Shown: positions 2,884 through 11,460 of the stretch, in pieces
Position numbering within the stretch: position 1 is the first letter of the stretch
Layout of the letters: each line of letters starts with the position of its first letter
Assembly: GCF_001885215.1 (NCBI RefSeq)
Contig: NZ_CP018091.1
Location: forward strand, 2,542,001-2,606,000
From: Synechococcus sp. SynAce01
Lineage (GTDB): Bacteria > Cyanobacteriota > Cyanobacteriia > PCC-6307 > Cyanobiaceae
DNA length: 64,000 bases
Direction: 5' to 3'
The notes under the pieces: generated by a model
Database searches by the model: none
Told to the model about the DNA's origin: nothing
The model's input: the letters and a program-made list of their open reading frames with translations, nothing else
Translations under genes and position numbers: made by a program

Positions 2884-4046
2884 GGATGGGCCGTCTGGCA
2901 TCCCTGCTGCTGATCGCCCTGATGGGCGGCTACGCCCTCTCCGGATGCACCCGGACGCCAGAAAAGAAGACAGAAACGCAGCAGTTCGTCTTTCAGTCGC
3001 TCAACCTGCGCCAATCCGATGACAAAGGCCGCCCTGCCTGGTCGCTGATCAGCCCTGAAGCCAGCTATGACCTCGAGCGGAAAATTGCCCAGGTCAAACA
3101 GCCCCGGGGCGTGATCTATGCCAAAGGCAAGCCGCAATACAACATTTCCGCCACCAGCGGCACGGTGATCAACGACGGCGAAGTGATCCAGCTGGAGGGG
3201 AAGGTAAAGATTCAGGCGGTCGGACCCAAGCCCTCGGTGATTTCAGGGGATCGGCTGCGCTGGATCCCCAGCCGGCAGAGGATCTCCATCGATCGCCGTC
3301 CGATGTTGGTTGATCGTTCCTCCCGCCTCACGGCTGATACGGCCCTGTTCTTGCTGGACCAGGACAAACTGGAGCTGCGGGGCCGCACCCGGCTGGTCAA
3401 CTCCACCATCGACCTGCAGGTGGCCCAGGCCGACTGGTTCGCGGCCAGTGGCGTCCTCAAGGCCCCCGGCCCGGTCAAAGGGATCCGGCGACTCAAGAAC
3501 AAGCAGGAGCAGACCCTCACAGCGTCCGCCCTGGAAGGCAACACCCGCACCGAAGTGATCGATGCCTTAGCTCCAGTGCGCTTTGTGGATCCTTCCCAGG
3601 ACGCCGTGTTCAATGGCCAGCGCACCCGCTGGGACAGCGCACGCCAGCGGCTCAGCACGGCCTTGCCCTTCGTTGCCCAGATTGGAAACCAGGAGGTGCG
3701 GGGCCAGTCTCTGGAACTGCAACTCGATGAGAAGTGGGCCTTGATTCCGGCCGGCTGCGACCTGCGCCAACCGGGCGAAGGCCTGACGGCTAACGATTGT
3801 CTCTACAACTGGGCTGACCAGTCGGTGCGGGCCCGGGGAAACGTGGTGTTTCGTCGCGAAGCCAACCAACAGGTCACCCGCAGTGAGGTGCTCAACGGCA
3901 AGGTGGATGGGAAGGGTCTCGCCGTGTTCACGACACCGGGGGGTCGGGTGAAATCCCAGCTTCAGGTTCCGCCGGCAAAAGAGTCTCCGACAGGGGAATC
4001 GGCGGGCAGCCGCTCTCCCCGCTCCAGGCCTCCAGTGACGTTCTGA
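2880..4046 (+). CDS. lptC: LptC-like lipopolysaccharide export protein (lipoprotein)
   Basis: The N-terminus has a short hydrophobic stretch ending in the lipobox-like LSGC at about residues 20-23, so it is probably a lipoprotein or membrane-anchored periplasmic protein. The following region (FQSLNLRQSDDKGRPAW, GVIYAKGKP, ISATSGTVINDGEVIQLEG) resembles the LptC/OstA beta-jellyroll that passes lipopolysaccharide from LptB2FG to the periplasmic bridge. At 388 residues it is about twice the length of enterobacterial LptC, as in other cyanobacterial members. It starts inside the metG stop (ATGA). The last 119 bp overlap the oppositely oriented gene that ends at 3928. The C-terminal tail (residues about 360-388) is Pro/Ser/Arg-rich and low in complexity. 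Confidence 0.85.
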   Translation: MRMGRLASLLLIALMGGYALSGCTRTPEKKTETQQFVFQSLNLRQSDDKGRPAWSLISPEASYDLERKIAQVKQPRGVIYAKGKPQYNISATSGTVINDGEVIQLEGKVKIQAVGPKPSVISGDRLRWIPSRQRISIDRRPMLVDRSSRLTADTALFLLDQDKLELRGRTRLVNSTIDLQVAQADWFAASGVLKAPGPVKGIRRLKNKQEQTLTASALEGNTRTEVIDALAPVRFVDPSQDAVFNGQRTRWDSARQRLSTALPFVAQIGNQEVRGQSLELQLDEKWALIPAGCDLRQPGEGLTANDCLYNWADQSVRARGNVVFRREANQQVTRSEVLNGKVDGKGLAVFTTPGGRVKSQLQVPPAKESPTGESAGSRSPRSRPPVTF

Positions 4047-8378: not shown

Positions 8379-9428
8379 ATGAAGCCTGTTCACTTCTTTC
8401 TGGCAATGGCGGGGCCGATTCCGGTCCTCTCGCTCGTGGCAGCTGGAGCTGTGCCCGGTGTAGCCGATTCCCGCTCGCTCAGCTGGGACGACTTGCCCGA
8501 GGCCTTGGCTGAGGCTCACCTGGCGCTAGCGCCAGGTGAGCCTTCTGCCAATCGCTTCTGGATCAAAATCAGCAGCCAAGTCAGCATCAGGGAGCTGGCG
8601 GATGCCTTGAGCCTTGTGCCCACAGACCTAGCCCAACTCAACAAGCGTCAGGTTGGCCATCGCCTTCAACCAGGTGAATGGGTGCAATTGCCTGGCGAGT
8701 CCCAGGAGCGTGCTCGGCGGCTGGACTCACTCGACGCCGGACAGATCCGCCGTACGCCACCCGCTTCGGTTTCTGGGCCTGTTGCCTCCACTGGAGTGGT
8801 TCGCTTCGGTGATGATCTTGGCAAGCTGGCGCAGCGTTATGGCATGCGTCTTCAGGATCTGTTACAGCTGAATCCAGGACTCCAGGCTGCCAGCCTGGTA
8901 ACCGGCACTCAGATTCGTGTCGCTAATTCTTCTCCGGCCCGCAGCCGCATGGTGCTGGGACTCAATCCTGTCGGTAGCGGTGGTCTGAGCTGGCCTGAAC
9001 TGCCCAGCTTCGGCGGTGAAGCTGAGGTTCGCCCCGCCCCGACCACCACCACCTGGATCTGGCCAGCGAAGGGGGTGTTCACTTCGGGATTCGGTTGGCG
9101 CTGGGGTCGCATGCACAAGGGCGTCGACATTGCCAGCAACGTCGGCACGCCGATCGTGGCAGCCCGCTCAGGCCGCGTCAGTTATGCGGGATGGCACAAC
9201 GGCGGCTACGGCTATCTCGTTGAGATCATCCATGATGATGGCAGCAAAACTCTCTACGGCCACAACAGCCGGGTGACGGTCCAAGTCGGCCAGACGGTTG
9301 CTCAGGGCACCAAGATCGCGGCGATGGGCAGTACGGGCCGCAGCACGGGCCCCCACCTTCATTTCGAGATTCACCCTGCCGGTCGCGGTGCGGCCAATCC
9401 ACTTCAGTTTCTTCCTGGCAGAGCCTGA
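8379..9428 (+). CDS. Secreted LysM / M23 (LytM-like) peptidase
   Basis: This 349-residue protein starts at ATG 8379 with a signal-like N-terminus (MKPVHFFLAMAGPIPVLSLVAAGAVPGVA). Two LysM-type repeats follow (ISSQVSIRELADALSLVPTDL with LQPGEWVQLP; FGDDLGKLAQRYGMRLQDLL with TGTQIRVAN). The C-terminus is an M23 endopeptidase domain. The zinc ligands are visible as H..D in GRMHKGVDIA and HLH in GPHLHFEIHP. The expected role is cleavage of peptidoglycan cross-bridges, or activation of amidases, in the periplasm. The frame also opens further upstream, but that extension lacks a signal peptide. A perfect 32-bp palindrome lies within codons 45-55. Confidence 0.9.
   Translation: MKPVHFFLAMAGPIPVLSLVAAGAVPGVADSRSLSWDDLPEALAEAHLALAPGEPSANRFWIKISSQVSIRELADALSLVPTDLAQLNKRQVGHRLQPGEWVQLPGESQERARRLDSLDAGQIRRTPPASVSGPVASTGVVRFGDDLGKLAQRYGMRLQDLLQLNPGLQAASLVTGTQIRVANSSPARSRMVLGLNPVGSGGLSWPELPSFGGEAEVRPAPTTTTWIWPAKGVFTSGFGWRWGRMHKGVDIASNVGTPIVAARSGRVSYAGWHNGGYGYLVEIIHDDGSKTLYGHNSRVTVQVGQTVAQGTKIAAMGSTGRSTGPHLHFEIHPAGRGAANPLQFLPGRA
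8512..8543. repeat. Perfect 32-bp palindrome inside the M23 peptidase gene
   Basis: The 16 bases at 8512-8527 (AGGCTCACCTGGCGCT) are followed with no spacer by their exact reverse complement at 8528-8543. The symmetry breaks at the next base pair (G 8511 against T 8544). It encodes part of the linker between the signal peptide and the first LysM repeat (AEAHLALAPGEP). No U-tract follows, so it is not a simple terminator. Confidence 0.9.
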
Positions 9429-9473: not shown

Positions 9474-9547
9474 GGCTCGGTAGCTCAGCTGGTTAGAGCG
9501 TGGGATTCATAACCCCAAGGTCGAGTGTTCAAGTCACTCTCGAGCCA
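9474..9547 (+). tRNA. tRNA-Met (anticodon CAT)
   Basis: The cloverleaf folds by eye. The acceptor arm pairs GGCTCGG with TCGAGCC (one G-T pair), the D stem pairs GCTC with GAGC, and the anticodon loop is TTCATAA. The variable region is AGGTC, and the T arm pairs GAGTG with CACTC around TTCAAGT. The discriminator base is A and CCA is not encoded. The 1-72 pair is G-C, which rules out the initiator, so this should be elongator tRNA-Met. A tRNA-Ile read by a lysidine-modified CAT cannot be excluded without comparison. The anticodon stem ends in an A-C mismatch (31-39). Confidence 0.9.
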
Positions 9548-9888: not shown

Positions 9889-11460
9889 CTATACCGCAAG
9901 CAGCAAATCGTGCGATTGGCCTCTGAGAGAGTAGTAGCCCTCTGAGTTCTCCTCCTGGAGGCTGTAAAGACCCAATAACCAACCCAGAATAAGGACAAAA
10001 AAGAGGCGCAGCAGCCTCAGCACCTTCTCGGAGCACATCACGATGAAGGCCATCGAGATCGTGGTCTCGGCACCATGCTTGAGTTTGGCCATGATCTGAT
10101 CCAATGAATACTTACGCTTTCCAGCTCCAAAGGATCCCTCTACCTCATTGCGTCGGCGCTGATCAGCATTGAGTTGCTGCTTGCGGGCAGCATTCAGCTC
10201 TGGGTTCTTTGGGGGACGCCCCAAAGGCTTGCCTGAGAGCCGGATTCCGTTTCTCATGCAGAAGTGTCTATTCTCGCGATTGATGTAGATACGATCAGCG
10301 CAGATCCGCTCTGGGTAGCAACCATTGTCTTCTTTATATTTTTCTGCCTGAGCAATGAGATCTCCACCTTCGTTGTATGCATCCCAACTGATGCGATGAA
10401 GAAATGGAAAACCATTCTCCACAGTGATGCTGATTTTGGCACCAAACTCCACAGCTGCCCTTGCTTTTCCTCGAACGATCGGCCTCACCTGCTTCTGAAC
10501 CAGGTGCACCAGCCGATGGGGAATGCTTCTGGTATTGCTTTCGAGAAGGATGGCTTGCTGCCGTGCCAGTTCACTGCAGGCCAGAAGCTTCTGCCACCAG
10601 TGCTGCTTGAGGGCAGAAAGGCTTGCCCCAACAGCGATCAACGCGTCGATCGACTCAAGATTGCGCTGCAGGTAGCTGAGCTGCTTCCTCACTGCAGCCT
10701 TGATTTTGCGCAGCCTTGGCTTTTTCTGCTTGGCGATCGTGAGGAAGCTGAAACGAGCTTTTTCGCGGTTGTAGTGGGGGCGATGGCGTCCAAAACCTTT
10801 GGACTGATGGCAAAGATCATCGATAATCTTTTCAGTGCCATTCCTCGCCTCGTTGAGCAGCTTCAAATCGGTAGGGTAGGTGATGTCTGCAGGGGTGCAG
10901 GAAGCATCAATGCTGATCGTTCCCCAGTTCTTGCCTTCTGGCCAGTCAGCTGGCTTGATCATCGAATCAAGTGAGAGCTGCGCGCCACCGTCTCCATCTT
11001 GATGATCCGGCTCATCGCTGTCATCAACTCTGGCAGCTACAGCTTCAACCAGCATCTCTTTGCCTCGCTGCACAATCAGCTCATTGATCTTGCGCAGATC
11101 TTTATCTGATAGTCGCTTACGGAAATGAACCATCATCGATGGATCAAAAGGGGCTTTGCTTGAGTAGCCAGAGAAGCCAAGAAAATACTGCATGTATGGA
11201 TTTTCCTGGATCTGCAGTACAGTCTCCTCATCACTCAGACCAAGCCGCTGCTTGATGTAAAGAGCGCCAAACGCTAGGCGTACTGATTTGGCAGGAGCTC
11301 CGATCGTGGCGCTGAACTGTGGTGCGTAGGACGATTCAAGCTCTTCCCACGGTATCAACTGAGCAAGAACCACCCAGCGGTTATCTGGATCAAGTGTGCC
11401 GCCAAAAGGAAGGTGGAACTCCTCGATGGAGAGCTGGCCATTATGATGTTTCCGATACAT
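9889..11460 (-). CDS. IS5-like DDE transposase
   Basis: A 523-residue transposase. The N-terminus (LPFGGTLDPDNRWVVLAQLI, SDEETVLQIQENPYMQYFLG, PFDPSMMVHFRKRL) is the DUF772 domain of IS5/IS1182-type transposases. A DDE_Tnp_1 catalytic domain follows. The three acidic residues are recognisable: D in ISIDASCTPADITYPTD, D in ICADRIYINR, and E in RRNEVEGSFGAGKRKY. The frame has no stops, so the enzyme is probably functional. The C-terminus has a hydrophobic stretch (LRLLRLFFVLILGWLLGLYSL) and ends about 80 bp inside the left inverted repeat. I cannot assign the subgroup (IS5 against IS1182) without a database. Confidence 0.92.
   Translation of the reverse strand: MYRKHHNGQLSIEEFHLPFGGTLDPDNRWVVLAQLIPWEELESSYAPQFSATIGAPAKSVRLAFGALYIKQRLGLSDEETVLQIQENPYMQYFLGFSGYSSKAPFDPSMMVHFRKRLSDKDLRKINELIVQRGKEMLVEAVAARVDDSDEPDHQDGDGGAQLSLDSMIKPADWPEGKNWGTISIDASCTPADITYPTDLKLLNEARNGTEKIIDDLCHQSKGFGRHRPHYNREKARFSFLTIAKQKKPRLRKIKAAVRKQLSYLQRNLESIDALIAVGASLSALKQHWWQKLLACSELARQQAILLESNTRSIPHRLVHLVQKQVRPIVRGKARAAVEFGAKISITVENGFPFLHRISWDAYNEGGDLIAQAEKYKEDNGCYPERICADRIYINRENRHFCMRNGIRLSGKPLGRPPKNPELNAARKQQLNADQRRRNEVEGSFGAGKRKYSLDQIMAKLKHGAETTISMAFIVMCSEKVLRLLRLFFVLILGWLLGLYSLQEENSEGYYSLRGQSHDLLLAV

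Follow-up and report, generated by a model that had tools for sequence, protein, structure and literature searches.

Quasipalindrome correction by template switching is represented by the work of Ripley (1982) and by the thyA hotspot of E. coli (Dutra and Lovett, 2006), both as described in PMC7202029, and it is also set out in the introduction of PMC8604942. The latter source further describes template-switch amino-acid changes in genes of Saccharomyces cerevisiae (many strains, 39 genes). Coding palindromes of up to 284 bp are numerous in the mitochondrial genes of nematomorphs, where template switching was the suggested cause (PMC6649704). The template-switch process is discussed for RNA stems in PMC8794818 and for coding palindromes in PMC6649704.

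The palindrome analysed here, which lies in a cyanobacterial peptidase gene, resembles the Ripley and thyA cases of PMC7202029 in that an imperfect inverted repeat would have been perfected via a cluster of changes for which the opposite arm served as template. It differs from them in that it separates two species of cyanobacteria as a natural, fixed difference, whereas those cases are, as described there, laboratory mutations or surveys, and in that one switch does not account for its two central bases. With the S. cerevisiae cases described in PMC8604942 it shares the homogenisation of arms inside coding genes and the neighbouring amino-acid changes, although here a single bacterial gene and a single close relative are concerned. 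It also resembles the nematomorph palindromes as perfect inverted repeats within translated genes, but the arms of those described in PMC6649704 encode conserved residues, whereas the present palindrome is shorter and occupies a variable linker. Quasipalindrome correction itself is a known mutational process, of which this palindrome would most plausibly be one more case. The work of van Noort et al. from 2003 is reportedly also cited in connection with this process.

The palindrome and its host gene

The window (the whole stretch of 64,000 nucleotides that was analysed) holds a perfect palindrome of 32 bp at 8512-8543, whose two arms of 16 bp adjoin without a spacer and are 100% complementary (AGGCTCACCTGGCGCT/AGCGCCAGGTGAGCCT). 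As the sequence-only reading had stated, it is coding, and it stands in frame in the ORF of a LysM/M23 peptidase. The features referred to below are the following:

8379-9428, + strand: host gene, LysM/M23 peptidase of 349 aa (Pfam PF01476 and PF01551; orthologue alignment)
8512-8543, no strand: perfect spacer-free palindrome, arms 8512-8527 and 8528-8543 (arm complementarity)
8505-8551, + strand: predicted RNA hairpin, formed by the palindrome and an outer 5-bp stem (8505-8509/8547-8551), with the loop CTAG at 8526-8529 (RNA folding)
8514 and 8541, no strand: paired positions, G-C in the window and A-T in the sister genome G001 (sequence comparison)
8526-8527, + strand: central CT, in codon CTA, aligned with codon GCA in G001, G002 and G003; a single switch is insufficient
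8534-8537, + strand: tract of the right arm; three of its four bases are unlike those of G001, and each of the three matches the left arm; one template switch would account for the tract

The encoded protein consists of an N-terminal signal-like stretch, a variable linker, a LysM domain and an M23 peptidase domain, and in the alignment the ATG at 8379 matches the MKP start of the orthologues. The linker, which follows the signal-like stretch and precedes LysM, is poorly conserved, and the palindrome sits in it. Genes of the CemA, CobU and SpoU families are located upstream of the peptidase gene, the CemA-family gene and the relatives of the genome suggesting a cyanobacterium; a tRNA-Met gene (9474-9547) is located downstream of it, and soon past this a transposase gene (DUF772 / DDE_Tnp_1_2) occupies 9889-11460 on the minus strand.

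Among the spacer-free palindromes of the window this is the sole one with arms above 8 bp, the length reached by the longest of the others. From base composition only, 5.7e-5 palindromes with 16-bp arms are expected per 64-kb window, and in third-order Markov sequences (5 x 464 kb) arms never exceeded 11 bp, which bears out the earlier statement that the length goes far past chance.

Sister orthologue and proposed origin

A protein match to the peptidase was obtained in 63 of the 99 genomes of the relatives set (own genome included) and, at 1e-90, in 117 of the 400 genomes of the family set. The closest orthologue, with 94% protein identity, is that of G001 (a draft genome, 80% complete), followed by those of G003 (67%) and G002 (66%). 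At the site of the palindrome G001 carries an imperfect palindrome of equal length, aligned without gaps and with 11 of its 16 pairs intact (AGACTCACCTGGCGGC/AGCGCCTCGCGAGTCT). The scan for inverted repeats covered CDS bases 61-240 of 15 orthologues besides the window's own, chosen from among the best-scoring ones with a full N-terminus; an inverted repeat at the palindrome site was absent in 14 of these 15, and G001 alone has one.

Between the window and G001, 7 of the 32 palindrome positions differ, compared with 83 of 1047 positions in the whole CDS (hypergeometric P 0.010). Of these seven differences, five mend the five mismatches of G001, one pair each (three in the right arm, two at the left centre), and the remaining two make up one swapped pair, at 8514 and 8541, each with an amino-acid replacement (A to T, P to S). 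The chance that five random substitutions would mend all five mismatches is 6.5e-7, a value to be read with the caveat that perfection in one genome makes the differences of the other resemble repairs by definition. The sequence-only reading had held that the palindrome would be accidental if orthologues encoded the same peptide with codons that break the symmetry. Such codons are present, and the peptide differs too; "accidental" is nevertheless not quite the right term, and a palindrome-making mutational process fits better than independent accidents.

We consider it fairly likely that the palindrome was made by quasipalindrome correction through template switching and that it has little or no selected function. 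According to this proposal, an imperfect inverted repeat would already have been present in the peptidase linker before the window species and G001 diverged. In the window lineage DNA synthesis would have snapped back at the hairpin, with the left arm (approximately positions 1-10 of the palindrome) templating the right arm, and this copy would have changed positions 23, 24 and 26 together; a further two-base change at the centre (positions 15-16) would have finished the symmetry. The product may then have been tolerated because the linker is weakly constrained, with no selected function being required. When a G001-like ancestor is copied from left to right across a 4-base loop, exactly the three right-arm changes result and the central two remain. 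No single copy event was found for the whole cluster, the best one leaving 2 of the 5 differences; at least two events are needed, and the central CT is not given by one canonical hairpin switch. The centre would call for a second event or an inter-strand switch, because copying by a simple snap-back is not possible when the loop has zero bases.

We infer all three of the direction of change, the replication mechanism and the neutrality of the product. As to direction, the central codon is GCA in G001 and in the orthologous loci of G003 (L005) and G002 (L006) and CTA in the window, and the C at position 24 is common to G001, L005 and L006. The outgroups thus suggest that the window state is derived at positions 15, 16 and 24, with a polarity that is uncertain because the linker alignment to them is gapped; the central CT was probably derived in the window lineage, and at positions 23 and 26 the outgroups give no clear polarity.

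Alternative explanations

A very stable RNA hairpin had been envisaged from the sequence, and folding agrees with this, predicting a stability of -38.8 kcal/mol (z -7.35). Selection might act on a hairpin that is specific to this lineage and lies in the 5' region of the peptidase mRNA, for example through slower translation past the signal peptide or altered mRNA decay. In favour of such selection, besides the very stable predicted fold, the linker of the window gene folds more strongly than 300 of 300 synonymous shuffles (z -3.79) and that of G001 beats all but 1 of 300 (z -2.7), no other segment of the gene folds as extremely as the linker in either species, the outer stem is predicted in both, and one pair (G-C/A-T) is compensatory. 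However, this compensatory pair entails two amino-acid replacements, which copying at the DNA level would also produce, the linkers of L005, L006 and L008 fold unremarkably (z -0.47, 1.52 and -0.67, respectively), 14 of 15 orthologues are without an inverted repeat at the site, and a tRNA was the only Rfam match; we therefore regard a selected hairpin as unlikely. In the orthologue at L007 the linker folds strongly (z -2.66), yet its best inverted repeat lies elsewhere.

The more general suggestion of a control element is poorly supported as far as a conserved element is concerned, given the 14 orthologues other than G001 without the repeat, the lack of a terminator and the lack of a match to any Rfam family at the palindrome. 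An intrinsic terminator was rejected, the position being mid-gene and no terminator-like site overlapping 8512-8543, and a promoter at the palindrome was checked and likewise rejected.

Parsimony does not favour gain over loss when just two sequences are compared, and the palindrome could have been perfect already in the common ancestor and have decayed in G001. The central GCA and the C at position 24, both common to G001, L005 and L006, argue against this order of events, to which we assign a low probability. It is very improbable that independent substitutions made the palindrome perfect by coincidence: the linker evolves fast, as 7 differences in 32 positions attest, but the small probability calculated above for five random substitutions and the excess of long palindromes over Markov and mirror controls both speak against it.

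The genome and its relatives were also searched for copies, as had been proposed in the sequence-only reading. In the own genome (G000, 2,750,634 bases in one contig) a single place lies within 3 mismatches of the 32-mer, and among the scanned orthologues the sequence is imperfect in G001 and missing from the 14 others. The 20-bp centre has two places within 3 mismatches in the own genome, versus one for the reversed control, and the exact 16-bp centre is present in 2 of the 99 genomes of the relatives set (the own genome and G077). Contig L002 of a viral collection holds a perfect 34-bp palindrome at 3866-3899, outside the listed nearby ORFs of at least 60 aa, with the same central 22 bp. The 16-bp core is found again in many genomes, and its sites reach arms of at least 12 bp about as often as other palindromes do, in 8 of 80 cases among the matches listed versus 4 of 58 elsewhere in the loci holding these sites and 9 of 106 in the own genome and G001. 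The 8 of 80 excludes 40 of the 120 sites, which were set aside because their flanks carry the motif of a repeat family that occurs mostly in two MAGs; one of these 40, L092 from a third MAG, has 12-bp arms, and with it restored the count is 9 of 81 among the matches listed. The 22-bp match of L002 was rejected as a shared element, core sites extending like any palindrome, and we infer a chance meeting of two long palindromes. That the palindrome, whole or as a remnant, is a mobile element of REP, MITE or similar kind inserted into the peptidase gene, as had also been suggested, is extremely improbable despite the recurrence of the core and the L002 palindrome, given the single genomic place, the extension rates of the core sites and the sister orthologue without insertion, whose equal length refutes an insertion after the split from G001.

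Two groups of repeats sharing the 16-bp palindromic centre were observed in MAGs. An interspersed repeat of approximately 60 bp occurs in a Planctomycetota MAG and a Hydrogenedentota MAG (L035 at 2449 and other VGYT contigs; L054 at 1069; L118 at 6019); its flanking motif accompanies 40 of the 120 core matches listed, 23 of the 40 lying within 600 bases of a locus end. A Legionellales MAG holds four near-identical copies, one of them reversed, around the same centre with arms of 11 bp (L041 at 2596, L043 at 178, L075 at 844 and L106 at 6315).

Long palindromes elsewhere in the genomes

Spacer-free palindromes with arms of at least 13 bp numbered 4 in 1.264 Mb of the own genome and 5 in 0.766 Mb of G001, which amounts to approximately 3-7 per Mb in the sampled parts of both genomes, whereas spacer-free mirror repeats of the same size numbered 0 and 1, respectively. 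Perfect spacer-free palindromes of G001 include arms of 23 bp (L275 at 70), 19 bp (L264 at 13585) and 17 bp (L282 at 5504). Diverse genomes yielded 4 spacer-free palindromes with arms of at least 12 bp in 861,103 bases, a sample made up of the loci fetched for holding the 16-bp core, where the core sites themselves were not counted. Six other long palindromes were compared with the sister genome, which in five cases carries a less perfect counterpart aligned without gaps, with 14/15, 15/19, 16/17, 10/14 and 12/13 pairs kept; for the sixth, L255 of the own-genome sample, no match in G001 was found. For the long-arm palindromes of G001 in L275 and L302, no counterpart was found within the 1.264 Mb sampled from the own genome.

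The own genome and G001 were aligned over 300,339 bases with 6.9% difference. Perfect arms of at least 11 bp with loops of 0-20 bases were counted in these aligned bases for 29 inverted versus 5 mirror repeats, and at least 3 differences in one arm were present in 6 of the 29 inverted versus 0 of the 5 mirror repeats. The clearest one-sided case is in G001, where one arm carries five changes and the opposite arm is unchanged. The number of differences per base in long perfect arms was hardly higher for inverted (0.087) than for mirror repeats (0.082), and compensatory double changes showed no inverted excess (14/3041 versus 9/2166 for mirror repeats, using 12-bp windows with at least 10 paired positions).

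It is possible, and we propose it tentatively, that in this cyanobacterial genus template switching between short inverted repeats is common enough to leave several long, recently perfected palindromes per Mb, mostly over long ORFs, and thereby regularly changes several residues of bacterial proteins at once. Before a striking palindrome within a gene is read as a binding site or regulatory element, a close relative should be checked. A difference in several residues of a natural bacterial protein may mimic fast or adaptive evolution where the simpler explanation would be that one arm of a hairpin templated the other.
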